Below, in pieces: positions 9,100 to 24,132 of a stretch of DNA of 24,237 nt. The position numbers and the translations under genes were made by a program. The notes under the pieces were generated by a model. It was given only the letters and a program-made list of their open reading frames with translations. It did not search any database and was not told where the DNA came from. Source of the DNA: a virus. The first letter of the stretch is position 1. The number at the start of each line of letters is the position of its first letter. The stretch lies in the IMG/VR virus record IMGVR_UViG_3300032093_000819, positions 1-24,237 of that record; one strand, 5' to 3'.

Positions 9100-9173
9100 G
9101 GTTCGTTAGCTTAGTTGGATAAAGCGCTACCCTGTCACGGTAGAGATCACGGGTTCAAGTCCCGTACGAATCG
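9100..9173 (+). tRNA. tRNA-Asp (GUC)
   Basis: Full cloverleaf: acceptor GGTTCGT (9100-9106) with ACGAATC (9166-9172, one G-U pair), D stem GCTT/AAGC, anticodon stem CTACC/GGTAG with loop CTGTCAC and anticodon GTC (9134-9136), T arm ACGGG-TTCAAGT-CCCGT, discriminator G73, an Asp identity base. The 3' CCA is not encoded. The gene starts right after the DUF932 terminator T tract and is probably transcribed by read-through or from an unseen promoter. Confidence 0.92.
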
Positions 9174-9231
9174 CAAATGAGATTTTTATTCTCAATATGT
9201 GAGACGCCCGCAAACTTAAAGGCCAAATTTT

Positions 9232-14152: not shown

Positions 14153-14170
14153 ATCTAACTAACACAAATT

Positions 14171-14206
14171 ATCCACAGGTTTATCCACAGCCTGTGGATT
14201 TTTTTG
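14171..14206 (+). terminator. Terminator of the left arm, overlapping DnaA-like boxes
   Basis: ATCCACAGG (14171-14179) / CCTGTGGAT (14191-14199), 9-bp stem, 11-nt loop, then T7. The same bases make up the DnaA-like boxes, so the two readings compete. Confidence 0.7.
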
Positions 14207-14599
14207 TGGATATCGTGTGGGGAAGTGGGCTAAATTTCCCCTTTACGACCAGGCATTTAAAAATCCCAGAAAATTTGAGAAAATTGGATCTAAATAAATC
14301 ATTATCTATTTAAATATACATCAAATGGATCAAAATGTTCCCAAAATGTGGGCAAATTTACCCGTTTACGGGGACATATTTATAGCCCCAGAAGGGGGAC
14401 AAATCGGACATTTACGACATGTTGACAAAAATCCCAGAATATGTAGCTATTGACAAATCTGTCTAAATATGCCAAATGGGATTACGTCTTAATATATGAG
14501 ATGGTTCAATATCATGTATATATCTATTTAAATAATTAGTAATAATTGATAGTAAATTGATAACCATTTTACTCCACAATGCTCCACTATACTCCACTT

Positions 14600-14809: not shown

Positions 14810-15286
14810 TTACTCTTCAAATGATTGTTGTGAAGCCCATAGAGCATCTTGATCTATTTGACTAGGATTAGTACCATTAGGGTATTGGTTATATTGGACT
14901 CCATTGGCTTCCCGCCCCTTTTGTTCTACAACAAATCCATTCTCCCTATCAAATAGGACATAGTCAAATTCTACAACTGTAAAGTACTGCTTGAAGGTTG
15001 AAATAACCTTATCTAGGTCTAGACTTCCGCATGTATAGAGATCGAATTGAATTAGCCCTGGATCTGTCTCATCCCAAATATGAAATGCGATATGGCTTGT
15101 TTCGATCATAACAATTGCGGTTAGACCTCTATTTCCAGGAACATCAACATAGGATGCAAATGGTCCTTTTATAATCTTCATATTAATCTGGTCGACTAGA
15201 AATTTAAGAAAATCAATTCCCTGTTCTTCTGTATTCATTGGATTAGCTACTTTAGCATTAACCAATAAGTGTTTGTGATATATCAT
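14810..15286 (-). CDS. S-adenosylmethionine decarboxylase-like protein (SpeD family, 158 aa)
   Basis: Prokaryotic AdoMetDC fold: KHLLVN start, GNRGLTAIVMIETSHIAFHIWDE (residues 51-73) and DLYTCG (82-87). AdoMetDC makes decarboxylated AdoMet for spermidine using a pyruvoyl group formed by cleavage at Glu-Ser. By alignment with the Thermotoga enzyme, Ser64, His69 and Cys86 match S63, H68 and C83, but the residue before the serine is Thr63 instead of Glu, and S55 is replaced by Thr56. Maturation is therefore uncertain, though I recall this ETSH form in other phage relatives. ATG 15286 has GGAAAGGTTTAAT; an in-frame upstream ATG (15331) lies in the neighbouring small gene. The C-terminal 40 residues are an Asn/Gln-rich extension. 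Confidence 0.85.
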   Translation of the reverse strand: MIYHKHLLVNAKVANPMNTEEQGIDFLKFLVDQINMKIIKGPFASYVDVPGNRGLTAIVMIETSHIAFHIWDETDPGLIQFDLYTCGSLDLDKVISTFKQYFTVVEFDYVLFDRENGFVVEQKGREANGVQYNQYPNGTNPSQIDQDALWASQQSFEE

Positions 15287-15287
15287 A

Positions 15288-15365
15288 TTAAACCTTTCCC
15301 TGTAAATATGCGAAGTAATTAAGTATAGCAAATAGTAGAATCAAAAGCCCTATAGCGTATTTCAT
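15288..15365 (-). CDS. Tiny membrane peptide (25 aa)
   Basis: MKYAIGLLILLFAILNYFAYLQGKV is nearly all one transmembrane helix (residues 4-20). The start overlaps the upstream stop (ATGA) behind GGCGGGAAAGA, and its end holds the ribosome site of the SpeD-like gene, so it fits the coupled chain exactly. Function unknown. Confidence 0.55.
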   Translation of the reverse strand: MKYAIGLLILLFAILNYFAYLQGKV

Positions 15366-16378: not shown

Positions 16379-16803
16379 TTTAGTTCCCCGTCCTTAACAA
16401 ATACTAAGCCAAAGGATTGGCCTGGATTTAGAGTAATATCTTTTGCCCCTACTTCAGCCCACCCGTATTTAGGAAATAAATTAAAGATATGTCTTTTATC
16501 TCTAACTATAATTGCCCAGTAAGCTTTCTCTGAAGGCATTGTGTCGCAAGGCTCTACTTCCCTTGATGGGAAACCGTTGACCCTGCATATTACCTGTAGC
16601 CCGTACTTGTTTGTTCCTTCTACCTTTATTTTAGCATTATCTAATATATCGTAGGCAGGAGTATTGTTCCCTGCTGTAATACATTGAGATACTTTTTTAT
16701 CTCCAAAGTCTATGTAAAGATTAACACACTCTGCAGGTTTTACTGCATATACCCCGCCAAGAATTAATACAAATATAAAAAGAACTGATAGTTTACTTTT
16801 CAT
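16366..16803 (-). CDS. Secreted DUF4430-like (transcobalamin C-terminal-like) protein (145 aa)
   Basis: MKSKLSVLFIFVLILGGVYA is a clear signal peptide or lipid-free anchor. The mature part looks like DUF4430: YIDFGDKKV, a NTPAYDIL stretch, NKYGLQVICRVNG, AYWAIIVRD and a final LNPGQSFGLVFV strand. The fold is shared with the C-terminal domain of transcobalamin, so ligand binding at the cell surface is possible. Three Cys could form a disulfide. ATG 16803 with TGGAAG is used; the longer frame to 16848 lies within the previous gene. It follows a cobalamin adenosyltransferase with an 11-nt overlap, which supports a cobalamin link. Confidence 0.6.
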   Translation of the reverse strand: MKSKLSVLFIFVLILGGVYAVKPAECVNLYIDFGDKKVSQCITAGNNTPAYDILDNAKIKVEGTNKYGLQVICRVNGFPSREVEPCDTMPSEKAYWAIIVRDKRHIFNLFPKYGWAEVGAKDITLNPGQSFGLVFVKDGELKWPD

Positions 16804-17311
16804 TAAACTTCCACAGCTTCTCCATGTTATAGTATCTAGCCATAACAAATAATAGATCTGATAGTCTATTTAGATATTTTGGAATCTCACGACTTATCTT
16901 TATTTCATCGTTGATTTCAAGTACTGCTATCGCTACCCATACAGATCTTTCTGCCCTTCTTACTACCGCCCTAGCATTGTGTAAAGGTCCTGTAGGCAAG
17001 ATAAAAGACGTTAGTGGCTCTAGATACTCATTGTAATCATCAATAATAGTCTCTAGCCACTCAACACGTTCTGGGGTTATCTTAATTGTTTGTGATCCAG
17101 CCAATTCAGCTCCAAGATCAAATAGATCTTGCTGAATCATATCAATAATATCTGTTCTGTCTGTCATTCCGATAGCAGAGTTTGCCTCATCTACTGAGCC
17201 TATGGCATCAATTAGTGGGCTGCTCTTATATACTTGCTCGTTACCACCGATAGAAGTTAATCCTTCATCGCCAGTTTTTGTGTATATCTTAGTTAATCTA
17301 TTCTTCGTCAT
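16793..17311 (-). CDS. PduO-type cob(I)alamin adenosyltransferase (172 aa)
   Basis: Transfers the adenosyl group of ATP to cob(I)alamin to make adenosylcobalamin in the cytosol. Family motifs are all present: TKIYTKTGDEGLT (ATP loop, about residues 7-19), IGSVDEANSAIG, NARAVVRRAERSVW (about 126-139) and NRLSDLLFVMARYYN near the C terminus. Length is close to the family norm. ATG 17311 is chosen; an upstream TTG frame is unlikely. It overlaps a small membrane-protein gene and the DUF4430-like gene, so all three are coupled. I see no B12-dependent enzyme in the window. No symbol is given because pduO/cobA2 naming depends on context. Confidence 0.9.
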   Translation of the reverse strand: MTKNRLTKIYTKTGDEGLTSIGGNEQVYKSSPLIDAIGSVDEANSAIGMTDRTDIIDMIQQDLFDLGAELAGSQTIKITPERVEWLETIIDDYNEYLEPLTSFILPTGPLHNARAVVRRAERSVWVAIAVLEINDEIKISREIPKYLNRLSDLLFVMARYYNMEKLWKFNEK

Positions 17312-17444
17312 CAAAATCCACTTCAAATGGATCGGAAAGATCTAGATTTTCTAGACCTTCTAAAGACTTAAAAGCAACCACGGCTGTAATAGCCATAACT
17401 GCTAGTAGTCCTGCAACAATAATCACCTTCTTATTCAATCCCAT
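17298..17444 (-). CDS. Small membrane protein with acidic tail (48 aa)
   Basis: A short basic N terminus (MGLNKK), one transmembrane segment (about residues 7-25) and a very acidic tail (DPFEVDFDDEE) give an N-in or signal-anchor topology. It overlaps both neighbours (17435-17608 and the adenosyltransferase), so it is probably part of that transcript. Function unknown. Confidence 0.65.
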   Translation of the reverse strand: MGLNKKVIIVAGLLAVMAITAVVAFKSLEGLENLDLSDPFEVDFDDEE

Positions 17445-20712: not shown

Positions 20713-21005
20713 TCTGCCAACTCCTTTAAAAGGCGGTGCTTTGGCATTGCTCCCACAATAGTGTGGACTGGATTTCCATCCTTAAATAATACCATAGTTG
20801 GTATTGATTGTACAGAGTATTCCTGAGATTTTTTTGGATTTTCATCAACATTTAACTTGCCGATCAAGAGTCCAGTTTCACTTGAGAGTTCTTCTAGGAT
20901 TGGATTCATCTTTTTACAAGGACCGCACCAGTCTGCCCAAAAGTCTACCAAGATTAATTCATTTTCTAATATAGCCTGCCCAAATGTGTCGTCTGTGATT
21001 ATCAC
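20703..21005 (-). CDS. Thioredoxin (100 aa)
   Basis: Classical thioredoxin: active site WCGPCK (Cys27, Cys30), DFWADW strand before it, KLNVDENP, and the cis-Pro motif SIPT (Pro69), then VLFKDG and a C-terminal helix. A cytosolic dithiol reductase; phage thioredoxins can support ribonucleotide reductase, DNA polymerase or the host redox pool. The GTG at 21005 (GGAGGCTAT upstream, GTGA overlap) is preferred; a longer frame to 21041 runs into the gene upstream. Slightly short but complete. Confidence 0.92.
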   Translation of the reverse strand: MIITDDTFGQAILENELILVDFWADWCGPCKKMNPILEELSSETGLLIGKLNVDENPKKSQEYSVQSIPTMVLFKDGNPVHTIVGAMPKHRLLKELAEWI

Positions 21006-21475
21006 ATAGCCTCCACATGAGTAGGCCAGAAATACTGGCATTTATCGCAACAGGTATAACCTAGTTCACGATAATCAGAATATTCATTGTAGAAATAATA
21101 TTTCTCAGGATCTTTCTCAAATAACCTGCCCTTATGTGAGTAATGAAGCTTTTCGTCTCCAAGCCACCAAGGCCTATCTGATTCTAGACCCATAAAGTTT
21201 TCTTCATAGATCTCATCAAATTTTGCGTGTGTGCTATTTTTATAGCCACGAAGAATAATTTCTTTAATGATTGACTCATTGTAAAGGAATAGCCAGTCTT
21301 CGTGCCCACGCCACATTTTAACTGCAGGGTGATTTACCCATGCACCAGACTGATCATAATAACCAGCCAAAGATTTAAGTACTTGTAGGTTCTCTACGCT
21401 TTGCTTAATAAGACGCTTGCGATCTAAATGCTTAGCAGTCTCAGCAAAGTCCGCCTCTGGTAGAAATGTTTGCAT
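21002..21475 (-). CDS. Pyr_excise / MSMEG_6728-like protein (157 aa)
   Basis: MQTFLPEADFAETAKHLDRKRLIKQSVENLQVL and NHPAVKMWRGHEDWLFLYN are the hallmark of the pyrimidine-dimer glycosylase/endonuclease V-like family (PF03013, MSMEG_6728 type), typical of actinobacteria and their phages. DNA repair is the name-based role, but activity of this subfamily is not established to my knowledge. A CCDKCQYFWPTH motif at the C terminus may bind zinc. No ribosome site; TACAAT lies 7 nt before the ATG, so leaderless. Coupled to the thioredoxin by GTGA. Confidence 0.85.
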   Translation of the reverse strand: MQTFLPEADFAETAKHLDRKRLIKQSVENLQVLKSLAGYYDQSGAWVNHPAVKMWRGHEDWLFLYNESIIKEIILRGYKNSTHAKFDEIYEENFMGLESDRPWWLGDEKLHYSHKGRLFEKDPEKYYFYNEYSDYRELGYTCCDKCQYFWPTHVEAM

Positions 21476-21482
21476 ACTATGT

Positions 21483-21511
21483 ATTGTACTAAATTATTTA
21501 CGGTTGGTCAA
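21483..21511 (-). promoter_or_regulatory. Canonical promoter, leaderless start
   Basis: Minus strand TTGACC (21506-21511), 17 nt, TACAAT (21483-21488), 7 nt before the ATG at 21475. The -35 lies in the end of the gene upstream. Confidence 0.75.
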
Positions 21512-21734
21512 TAGTAGGCGGTGTGCCTTTTAGTTCTTCTGCTGCTGCATTAAACTTATCCATAAATACTTTTACTACAAAAAATGTAGACTCATGAGCA
21601 TTTTTAGAAAGATTATTTAAATTCTCTTCCGATCTTTGGTCTTCAGGAAGAGCGTTAGCCCACTTCTGAAATAAAGCTTTTGATGTATCTTGAATTATTT
21701 CTTCAAGCACGGTCATGGTTTTTTGTTCATCCAT
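21498..21734 (-). CDS. Helical hypothetical protein (78 aa)
   Basis: Not recognised. Amphipathic helices throughout (VLEEIIQDTSKALFQKWANAL; FFVVKVFMDKFNAAAEEL) and a Pro-rich end (GTPPTIDQP). It overlaps the subtilase gene by 8 nt, with AGGAGCAGC upstream. Its 3' end carries the next promoter's -35. Confidence 0.7.
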   Translation of the reverse strand: MDEQKTMTVLEEIIQDTSKALFQKWANALPEDQRSEENLNNLSKNAHESTFFVVKVFMDKFNAAAEELKGTPPTIDQP

Positions 21735-22638
21735 TTATTGCTGCTCCTATATTAATTAGTTTACCAAAAAGCACCTTGTTGCTTTTAGTGTTTACTGATG
21801 TGCGTGAAAGCAAATCATAAATTTCTTGATACGTTAGATTAGGTTTTGCAGACCTAATTGCTAACCAATTTGCAGCAGCAACTTGAGTTGCTACCGATGT
21901 TCCTCTGCCTATACCAGTTTTATTTCCTACAGTATAAAGCTTCATTTGCCCTAAAGAATAAAAGTCTACCAAATTGTAGTCATTGTTACTATAAGTAGCA
22001 ATACTGTTGCTTATATCAGTTGCTCCAATTGCTATAGAATCTTGAATACATGAAGGCCAATCTATTCTTTCTGGATCAGAATTGTTTCCTGTAGGGAAAA
22101 ATACTGGAATGTTCATTTGTTTTAAGTTAGATATGGCTGGCTTAAGATACTTGGAAATAGGGCAATACTGTTTATAATAAAGTAGTTTATGATGTCCCTG
22201 AGACATAGATACTGCTTGTATATTATACTTTTCTTTATTTACCGCCACCCAATTTAAAGCCTCAACGATATTTCCTTCTGTAGTTGGCATTCTATATCCG
22301 CTAGAATTATGTGCGATTATTCTAATAAACACAATATTAACATTAGGATTTGTTAGAACAACTGCAGATGCCATTTGTGTCCCATGCGAAAAACCATTAC
22401 GAGATATGATCTCATTTCCCAGAACCGCAGACCCAGATCCTTCCATATAGTAATCACCATTAGGGCAAGAAGGCCAGTCAAGTATGCATACCTCTTGGAT
22501 AACCTTGCTATTAAAAATTGGCAAAGATGTATCAAGGGCTGTATCTAAAATAGCAATTGATGGTTTTTCGTCTACCGCATTTGCAGGTAAAGATAAAACA
22601 GGGATCAGTAATATGACAACCGCTATAATTTTTTTCAT
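21727..22638 (-). CDS. Secreted subtilisin-like serine protease (S8 family, 303 aa)
   Basis: A signal peptide (MKKIIAVVILLIPVLSLPANA, cleavage near 21) precedes a subtilase domain with the complete triad: Asp32 in AILDTALD, His85 in GFSHGTQMAS, Ser248 in GRGTSVA, plus the oxyanion Asn185 in PTGNNSD. There is little room for a propeptide, which is unusual for secreted subtilases. An extracytoplasmic protease; targets could be host surface proteins, and the S-layer-like gene lies 1.3 kb away. The ATG is 6 nt after TATTAT, so leaderless, with no ribosome site. Confidence 0.9.
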   Translation of the reverse strand: MKKIIAVVILLIPVLSLPANAVDEKPSIAILDTALDTSLPIFNSKVIQEVCILDWPSCPNGDYYMEGSGSAVLGNEIISRNGFSHGTQMASAVVLTNPNVNIVFIRIIAHNSSGYRMPTTEGNIVEALNWVAVNKEKYNIQAVSMSQGHHKLLYYKQYCPISKYLKPAISNLKQMNIPVFFPTGNNSDPERIDWPSCIQDSIAIGATDISNSIATYSNNDYNLVDFYSLGQMKLYTVGNKTGIGRGTSVATQVAAANWLAIRSAKPNLTYQEIYDLLSRTSVNTKSNKVLFGKLINIGAAING

Positions 22639-22644
22639 TTATTA

Positions 22645-22673
22645 ATAATACTAAATGTAATAGAATCTGTCAA
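22645..22673 (-). promoter_or_regulatory. Canonical promoter, leaderless start
   Basis: Minus strand TTGACA (22668-22673), 17 nt, TATTAT (22645-22650), 6 nt before the subtilase ATG. Confidence 0.8.
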
Positions 22674-22675
22674 TA

Positions 22676-22840
22676 CTATTTATTATTTTTAGGAGTATAC
22701 CATTTACCAGCGTCAAGGTCTGGTAACTTCATAGAATTTGATTCCAACAATGCATGAAGAGTAGCCTTTAAATACTCAAGTTCAAATTGTTGTCGTAAAA
22801 CTTCTAGTTCAAGTAATCTTATTCTGTCTGACTTTCTCAT
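22676..22840 (-). CDS. Small coiled-coil protein (54 aa)
   Basis: Not recognised. RIRLLELEVLRQQFELEYLKATLHALLES is one heptad-patterned helix, followed by KLPDLDAGKWYTPKNNK. The ATG overlaps the upstream stop (TAATG), with GGAAATGAAT as a modest ribosome site. Confidence 0.65.
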   Translation of the reverse strand: MRKSDRIRLLELEVLRQQFELEYLKATLHALLESNSMKLPDLDAGKWYTPKNNK

Positions 22841-23190
22841 TATTCATTTCCAAAATCTACTGGTGTTGGGGCTGTTGCCAAGCTTCCGCATTGAGCACAT
22901 TCCATATCTAAAAAGTAGGTTGCAATTTCAGAATCATTAAAGATAACCTTAACATTCCAAATGTTACATCCACATGGGCAGACATGAGTTGGAGTACCTC
23001 TAAGGTCCATAGCCTTGCTGTAATCTTCTGGTTTCAGATCCTTGATGCTTCTCAAGTTTTCCTCTTCAAACTCTATGTCTTCATTATCGTTATTGATAAT
23101 AAGGATTCTGTTTTTATCAACAAAATCTTTAATCATGCCCAGTGTTATAAGCCCAAAGAACAGGGCTGACAGTCTACTGAGCCACTTCAT
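22840..23190 (-). CDS. Membrane-anchored zinc-ribbon phage protein (116 aa)
   Basis: One N-terminal hydrophobic segment (about residues 8-21), an acidic linker, then THVCPCGCNIWNVKVIFND.EIATYFLDMECAQCGSLATAPTP (about 68-110), a C4 ribbon whose motifs match a widespread uncharacterised phage protein. Here it has an added membrane anchor. Leaderless: TATAAT lies 6 nt before the ATG and no ribosome site is present. Confidence 0.8.
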   Translation of the reverse strand: MKWLSRLSALFFGLITLGMIKDFVDKNRILIINNDNEDIEFEEENLRSIKDLKPEDYSKAMDLRGTPTHVCPCGCNIWNVKVIFNDSEIATYFLDMECAQCGSLATAPTPVDFGNE

Positions 23191-23196
23191 ATTCTT

Positions 23197-23225
23197 ATTA
23201 TATCTTAGACTTCGATAATTGTAAA
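23197..23225 (-). promoter_or_regulatory. Canonical promoter, leaderless start
   Basis: Minus strand TTTACA (23220-23225), 17 nt, TATAAT (23197-23202), 6 nt before the ATG at 23190; the -35 lies in the 3' end of the Ntn-hydrolase gene. Confidence 0.8.
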
Positions 23226-23774
23226 GGGAGGTCTAACTGCCATATTAAACTTAGCCGCCGCCTCTAAAGCCATACGAACACGCTTGCGTGGAGTCTTTAT
23301 TGTTGGTGTAGAAAATAATGAACCCAAAGCTAGTTCTTGCCCAGCCCCTTCAGCCATATAGTTTACATCTACTTCAGATATATGAAAGTCTGTATCCATT
23401 GTAAAGATTCTTCCAGCACCCTGTACTGCAATTATAAAAATTCCGCCTTCATCGCCATCTTCAGGAGCACTAGTACCAAACTTACCATAACCGTGTTCTT
23501 GAAATGTTTCTTTAACTGATTCAACAAATCTTGTACGCATGAACTTATCTATGTTTCTAAATCCTGCAGTTGGTTTATAAACAGGAGGAGTCCACGAATA
23601 TTGTAAAATTTGACCCATTCTAAAACTATCTACAAACCCTATGCCAAATTGACCAACCTTAAAAACCTTTGGATCTGTTCTTTGAAAAATTAATCCAGAC
23701 TTATCATCAGATGCAGCAGCATCTCCCCCAAGGAGGACTTTGTTTTCATGGATTAGGGCAACTATACAGGTCAT
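23205..23774 (-). CDS. HslV/proteasome-like Ntn hydrolase (189 aa)
   Basis: MTCIVALIHENKVLLGGDAAASDD matches the start of HslV/proteasome beta-type subunits. After Met removal Thr is residue 1 (nucleophile), Asp17 falls in GGDAA, and the Lys of DPKVFKV is the equivalent of Lys33, moved by two residues. GIGFVDSFRMGQILQY and a YMAEGAGQELALGSLF stretch also fit (the conserved GSG/ALG helix region). It lacks any propeptide, as in HslV. Threonine protease or a related amidase is inferred; no HslU/ATPase is in the window. Leaderless: TATACT lies 7 nt before the ATG. Confidence 0.75.
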   Translation of the reverse strand: MTCIVALIHENKVLLGGDAAASDDKSGLIFQRTDPKVFKVGQFGIGFVDSFRMGQILQYSWTPPVYKPTAGFRNIDKFMRTRFVESVKETFQEHGYGKFGTSAPEDGDEGGIFIIAVQGAGRIFTMDTDFHISEVDVNYMAEGAGQELALGSLFSTPTIKTPRKRVRMALEAAAKFNMAVRPPFTIIEV

Positions 23775-23781
23775 ATAGACT

Positions 23782-23810
23782 AGTATACTATTTTTAAAAT
23801 TCCTAGTCCA
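23782..23810 (-). promoter_or_regulatory. Promoter, leaderless start
   Basis: Minus strand TGGACT (23805-23810), 17 nt, TATACT (23782-23787), 7 nt before the ATG at 23774. Confidence 0.65.
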
Positions 23811-24132
23811 GTTCCCCTTCAGGATGGTATTTTTCTATTTGAGAGTCAATGAATGATAGTTTAAGGAGTGTTTCTTCAAGTTCCGCCTTTACCCCAATTA
23901 ATTCTTGAATAGCATCATAATATTTATCTTTCCACTCAGTCAATTCCCGCTCAATTTTATATAATTCAATTTTAAGGTCTTTAAGTTCTAATTTAAGGTG
24001 ATCTTGCTCACGCTCAGCCCTGCGTATTTTTTCTTTTTTATTATCCCTCAAGCCTGCAATTACAGCAGTCCCCATGCCTGAAACGGCAGCGGCAAAAATA
24101 GCGACAACTATGGCAGTATAATCTATGTTCAT
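23803..24132 (-). CDS. Membrane-anchored coiled-coil protein (109 aa)
   Basis: A transmembrane segment at about residues 7-27 (IVVAIFAAAVSGMGTAVIAGL), then a long coiled coil (about 30-95) with heptads of Leu/Ile. The layout is common in actinophage small membrane proteins; spanin or signalling roles are speculative. A -10 TATAAT (24142-24147) is 9 nt before the ATG, so the leader would be only about two bases. Its stop is next to the promoter of the Ntn-hydrolase gene. Confidence 0.75.
   Translation of the reverse strand: MNIDYTAIVVAIFAAAVSGMGTAVIAGLRDNKKEKIRRAEREQDHLKLELKDLKIELYKIERELTEWKDKYYDAIQELIGVKAELEETLLKLSFIDSQIEKYHPEGELD

Follow-up and report, generated by a model that had tools for sequence, protein, structure and literature searches.

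The window, by which we mean the whole 24,237-base stretch analysed here (an IMG/VR record that is itself a fragment, with a GC content of 39%), encodes an N-terminal threonine hydrolase, one of the proteasome homologues that Fuchs, Alva and Lupas (2021) place in group I. Set against the published description of AAH, it is probably a member of an AAH-like or sister subfamily. By analogy with BPH, we consider it moderately likely that this phage peptidase works in a BPH-like manner, without a dedicated unfoldase. The protein family as such is already known in phages (PHROG_1040, PMC8665760); new here are the actinophage lineage, the conserved catalytic residues, a host class free of HslU, a possible loss of the proteasome, a fixed gene cassette and a probable leaderless promoter.

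The peptidase gene, its active site and its fold

The peptidase gene is intact (189 codons, with the ATG at position 23,774), and its 189-aa product opens with Met-Thr (N-terminal sequence MTCIVALIHENKVLLGGDAAASD), such that the mature protein would start with threonine once the methionine is removed. A preliminary description of this DNA had proposed a proteasome-like hydrolase at exactly the coordinates in Table 1, without stating the strand, which is the minus strand. It had also proposed an N-terminal-threonine enzyme that lacks a propeptide. This agrees with our comparison, since all 81 close relatives use the same ATG, preceded by a −10 element and no Shine-Dalgarno motif. Specifically, a TATA(C/A)T hexamer ends 5–9 nt before the ATG at 81 of 81 loci, and a Shine-Dalgarno-like motif precedes it at 0 of 81. 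In the window, the ATG begins 7 nt after the −10 TATACT; because of this spacing and the missing Shine-Dalgarno motif, the peptidase mRNA is likely leaderless. This layout in turn supports the annotated ATG, and hence Thr1.

Of the first six genes in the arm, five share this layout, compared with about 5% of all ATGs. Along positions 21,002–24,132 of the minus strand, a −10-like hexamer lies 6–9 nt before the ATG, again with no Shine-Dalgarno motif, in the genes for the 109-aa coiled-coil protein, the peptidase, the 116-aa protein, the subtilase, and a pyrimidine-dimer glycosylase. Many plus-arm genes instead carry an aaAGGa Shine-Dalgarno-like motif. Judged from these sequence motifs, this part of the minus arm apparently has one leaderless promoter per gene.

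Table 1. Positions of the features discussed; coordinates are those of the window unless another record is named before the colon.
Feature	Position	Strand	Basis or remark
Proteasome-like (PHROG_1040) N-terminal threonine hydrolase	23205–23774	minus	ORF, PHROG_1040, invariant Thr/Asp/Lys, predicted fold
Promoter-like site: −35-like TGGACT (23810–23805), 17-nt spacer, −10 TATACT (23787–23782)	23782–23810	minus	consensus scan
109-aa coiled-coil protein with hydrophobic N-terminus	23803–24132	minus	phrog_10127 (unknown function), E 7e-11; upstream neighbour
116-aa protein with hydrophobic N-terminus and cysteine motifs	22840–23190	minus	no family; downstream neighbour
Secreted subtilase (Peptidase_S8) with signal-peptide-like N-terminus	21727–22638	minus	PF00082, E 1.6e-18
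Cobalamin adenosyltransferase	16793–17326	minus	
S-adenosylmethionine decarboxylase (polyamine synthesis)	14810–15331	minus	
DnaA-box-like repeat cluster	14169–14212		convergent junction of the two arms
tRNA-Asp (GTC)	9100–9174	plus	
Phage Hsp20 small heat-shock protein	L136:17305–17730		same arm as the peptidase
B12-type ribonucleotide reductase	L138:14593–16527		sister contig
ClpP-like and HslV-like proteases, Sir2-like gene	L088:2065–3597		Escherichia phage 121Q

Profile searches place the protein in PHROG_1040, annotated as ‘peptidase HslV family’ (residues 1–187, E 6e-13). The Pfam Proteasome model gives a weak, sub-threshold match, and an NCBIfam scan at E-values up to 10 returned no HslV model and just two weak 20S beta models. 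Numbered from Thr1, the catalytic residues are Asp17 and Lys35, the latter aligning with HslV Lys33 across a two-residue insertion. The Thr1/Asp17/Lys arrangement of the preliminary description is therefore correct: the three residues align with T1, D17 and K33 of HslV, and do not vary in any of the 81 close relatives or of the 40 rows of a diverse alignment. Counting from the methionine, all 81 close relatives keep T2, D18, K36, D129, G143 and G145, and the 40-row alignment, which reaches down to 24% identity, keeps M1, T2, D18, K36, F83, D129, G143, G145 and G151. Arg52 and an SFRMGQ motif next to the active site hardly vary among phage and bacterial sequences. Pairwise dN/dS values between the window peptidase and close relatives are ∼0.04–0.12 at pS of 0.47–0.73; such low ratios, at a synonymous divergence that reaches 0.73 differences per site, indicate strong purifying selection. 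The PHROG_1040 match, the invariance of the catalytic residues and this selection together rule out a chance ORF.

The position that aligns with the oxyanion Gly47 departs from the canonical residue. All 81 close relatives have Asp here and distant members mostly have Ser; among the phage family members aligned, only the clade of Actinomycetia phage DSL-LC01 has Gly. From the sequence, Asp or Ser at this position could alter catalysis, or the backbone NH may be enough.

An AlphaFold2 model built on the 40-row alignment (pLDDT 90.1, pTM 0.86) is a confident proteasome fold and not another one, as the preliminary description had expected. Its strands and helices are complete and both helix pairs are present; helices 51–60 and 75–93 are both in the model, and H2 is therefore present. 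The model ends in a short strand after H4. Ranking by Foldseek and VIA-align on this model gives the four-layer proteasome-type fold of the Ntn hydrolases of family T1, with Z-scores of 17–21 against BPH, HslV and 20S beta over 162–174 residues. The best VIA-align match is BPH (5ovs; Z 20.7, 2.3 Å, 169 residues), with HslV at Z 18–19, and residue 2 of the model superposes on residue 1 of both BPH and HslV. Searching PDB sequences with the family profile likewise returned BPH (1.3e-8) and HslV (7e-8). A single-sequence PDB search with the phage peptidase gave nothing relevant; matches came from the family profile and the fold comparison alone. Between H2 and the next strand lies a loop of 19 residues, four of them acidic (residues 94–112, HGYGKFGTSAPEDGDEGGI). 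This loop resembles, at the level of sequence, the long acidic pore loop of BPH, which has been tied to independence from an unfoldase (PMC8665760).

Relatives, gene neighbourhood and host

Relatives of the peptidase are carried by 47 phage records, all less than 60% identical, and by 143 IMG/VR stretches, the best 80 of which are 80–100% identical. At the DNA level, the closest match to known phages is a 30-base stretch only. Bacterial relatives occur in alphaproteobacteria, myxobacteria (many), Streptomyces and a few others, and 26 of 296 sampled actinomycete genomes encode one. Around these bacterial homologues, no neighbour is conserved beyond the gene itself and its reading-frame shadows, in agreement with PMC8665760. 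A 39-protein tree recovers the window clade as one supported group (100/100), apart from a clade of DSL-LC01, Arthrobacter and Microbacterium phages (100/97); several branches of this tree are long, with some joins resting on them and the deeper order unsure. The family seems to have been acquired at least twice by actinophages.

Gene order around the peptidase is fixed across the 81 loci. It runs from a CHAP endolysin through an unknown gene, WhiB, two small proteins and the 109-aa coiled-coil protein to the peptidase, and continues with two small proteins, the secreted subtilase, a small protein and thioredoxin. A homologue of the coiled-coil protein is present in 69 of the 78 loci able to show it, and a neighbour at the place of the 116-aa protein in 75/75 and 76/76 loci, as seen from two reference contigs. 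The nearby secreted subtilase mentioned in the preliminary description lies two genes downstream and is conserved in 71 of the 73 loci able to show it.

WhiB points to the host. A WhiB gene scores over the cut-off in each of the 15 longest relatives; where positions were compared, it lies about 1.0–1.4 kb upstream of the peptidase gene and in the same orientation. WhiB is used as an actinophage marker (PMC6802176, PMC10202952), from which we infer an actinobacterial host class; the phage probably infects freshwater actinobacteria. For the cobalamin adenosyltransferase of the window, matches in small actinobacterial genomes are slightly better than those in large ones, by bit scores only a few units apart and with E-values that depend on genome size; this difference weakly suggests a streamlined freshwater actinobacterium as the host.

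Several other features of these phages deserve mention. Together with the adenosyltransferase, the ribonucleotide reductase of a sister contig (Table 1) and a cobalamin biosynthesis gene in DSL-LC01 make up a B12/RNR theme among these actinophages. The window also encodes a polyamine-synthesis enzyme and a tRNA. At the junction of its arms, DnaA-box-like TTATCCACA / TGTGGAT repeats form a cluster that folds strongly (z −3.8) and shares 30 identical bases with nine Streptomyces phage records; on its sequence, this cluster is a possible replication origin.

Unfoldase partners and possible modes of action

The window holds no unfoldase gene, as the preliminary description had stated. Among 15 long sister contigs, PF07724 (HslU, ClpX, ClpB) matched 0/15, and PF00004 gave nothing over the cut-off and three sub-threshold fragments of about 35 of 131 positions; these contigs are fragments by their IMG/VR classes, from which an unlinked AAA+ gene could escape, and the absence is provisional. 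HslU (TIGR00390, E 1e-50) was found in 0 of 148 sampled genomes of the class Actinomycetes, the class of Streptomyces, by a search that did recover it from control species with HslU. Mpa/ARC scores over the cut-off in 126 of the same 148 genomes. Within this set, it occurs in 5 of the 15 genomes of 1.5 Mb or less; among 16 further genomes no larger than 2 Mb, one has it. Of 29 small-genome actinobacteria, 27 have no 20S beta. Of the partners that the preliminary description had named, HslU is thus absent from contigs and host class alike, whereas Mpa/ARC is widespread in the class and mostly missing from its small genomes. A gene for the small heat-shock protein Hsp20 is present in 12 of the 15 long contigs, about 8.5 kb upstream in sister contig G006.

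We conjecture the following mode of action for the phage peptidase. Removal of the methionine would expose Thr1 as the nucleophile, which Lys35 (equivalent to Lys33) and Asp17 would activate. By analogy with BPH, a double-ring peptidase, the subunits would probably form a ring, and this ring may cleave peptides, or proteins that are unfolded and damaged, with no ATP-driven unfoldase of its own. Help, if any, would come at most from host chaperones, host Clp or the phage Hsp20; host Clp, Lon or FtsH are possible helpers. Transcription would start from the gene’s own leaderless sigma70-type promoter. The gene shares its conserved cassette with WhiB and the secreted subtilase, and this cassette may serve host takeover.

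Several alternatives merit consideration. The peptidase could instead supply the proteolytic chamber, and a host AAA+ protein (Mpa/ARC, ClpX or ClpC) the unfolding, for the destruction of selected host proteins, with a small conserved neighbour perhaps serving as adaptor. The frequency of Mpa/ARC in the class is consistent with such borrowing, small conserved neighbours flank the peptidase gene on both sides, and PMC8665760 allows for interaction with housekeeping factors. However, HslU is missing from the host class, the small genomes that best match the phage cobalamin adenosyltransferase are mostly without Mpa and 20S, and the peptidase shows no obvious C-terminal extension of the docking-motif type; we consider a borrowed unfoldase unlikely.

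A specific, non-degradative enzyme, either a peptidase that processes a single site or a transpeptidase-ligase like the methanogen connectase, appears quite unlikely. Connectase, a transpeptidase-ligase on a proteasome fold, proves the fold capable of such chemistry (PMC8665760). The Asp or Ser in place of the oxyanion Gly would also suit this reading, and the near-invariant Arg52 and SFRMGQ suggest a fixed substrate pocket. Nonetheless, both helix pairs are present, the connectase S3/S4 insertion is not seen in the model, and the nearest folds are ring peptidases.

The preliminary description had raised a role in virion maturation; the targets could be capsid, tail or internal proteins. Proteolytic head maturation occurs in many phages, and in a sister phage only a few kilobases separate the gene from the CHAP endolysin. 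Sister contig G006 speaks against such a role: an S78-type prohead protease sits between portal and capsid at about 28–32 kb, while the DNA-metabolism/lysis arm holds the peptidase gene at 84 kb, more than 50 kb from this head module. Homologues in other phages have nucleotide-metabolism genes and unknown genes as neighbours. A head module with its own protease so far from the gene makes capsid maturation, and virion maturation generally, highly improbable. An inactive relic or regulatory pseudo-enzyme would fit an oxyanion position without Gly47 but is just as improbable, as a dead enzyme would need neither a dN/dS of 0.04–0.12 nor full invariance of Thr, Asp and Lys.

The BPH-like reading invites a broader and rather doubtful speculation: phages may equip streamlined actinobacteria, which have lost both 20S+Mpa and HslUV, with a complete unfoldase-free protease of the proteasome type that, together with the phage Hsp20 and WhiB, would remodel or recycle the host proteome at takeover. 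Phage enzymes with a proteasome fold have been catalogued but, within the literature searched, not characterised; for the function of phage HslV and other Ntn hydrolases this literature offers annotation only. Dozens of environmental actinophage contigs carry this peptidase with its active-site residues conserved, and a host class without HslU, in which the likely hosts mostly lack a proteasome, makes it a clean test case for ATPase-free function.

Comparison with known proteasome homologues

The identification as HslV itself, put forward in the preliminary description, does not hold. HslV shares the fold, the Thr1/Asp17/Lys33 residues and the Met-Thr start, but it is only about 15–19% identical and the phage peptidase has a longer loop. 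The absence of HslU from phage relatives and host class, the lack of a curated HslV match and BPH as the best relative lead us to reject HslV proper. A jumbo phage with HslV but without HslU has been noted previously (PMC7823757). In Escherichia phage 121Q, a jumbo phage, the ClpP-like and the HslV-like (PHROG_1040-type) proteases are one gene apart and are followed by the Sir2-like gene.

PHROG_1040 proteins have in common with the window peptidase the N-terminal Thr, Asp and Lys and the SFRMGQ motif. The window peptidase is 24–39% identical to the cultured-phage members aligned, and falls in its own clade of freshwater-type actinophages. Actinophage homologues, annotated as protease or HslV, are found in DSL-LC01, a published lake actinophage (PMC10611076), in Arthrobacter phages Hum25 and Pitbull, and in Microbacterium phage Pumpernickel. 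These form the separate clade described above, share about 26% identity with the window peptidase, begin with MTT, and have AAGD where the window clade has FVDS. In DSL-LC01 the HslV-like gene directly adjoins WhiB, and a WhiB-like cysteine motif lies within about 1 kb of the gene in two of three related contigs.

BPH (PDB 5ovs, 5ovt, 5ovu) is the best match by both fold and profile, and shares with the phage peptidase a long acidic loop and the lack of an unfoldase. The two proteins are about 19% identical, the BPH residue that aligns with the oxyanion position is Gly, and BPH is a chromosomal bacterial enzyme, unlike the phage peptidase. The AAH and PPH proteins of group I are likewise phage-borne, without a propeptide and without a co-occurring AAA+ protein (PMC8665760). 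PPH proteins have about 140 residues and lack H2 (PMC8665760); the phage peptidase, with 189 residues and H2 present, is not a PPH. AAH proteins are compact, lack the C-terminal S12/H5, and have bacterial members in alphaproteobacteria and actinobacteria (PMC8665760); our bacterial relatives resemble this distribution in their alphaproteobacterial and Streptomyces members, but include many myxobacteria as well. The authors of that study found no Actinobacteria-specific phage with AAH; if the peptidase is an AAH, the phage of the window is such a carrier and fills this gap stated in 2021.
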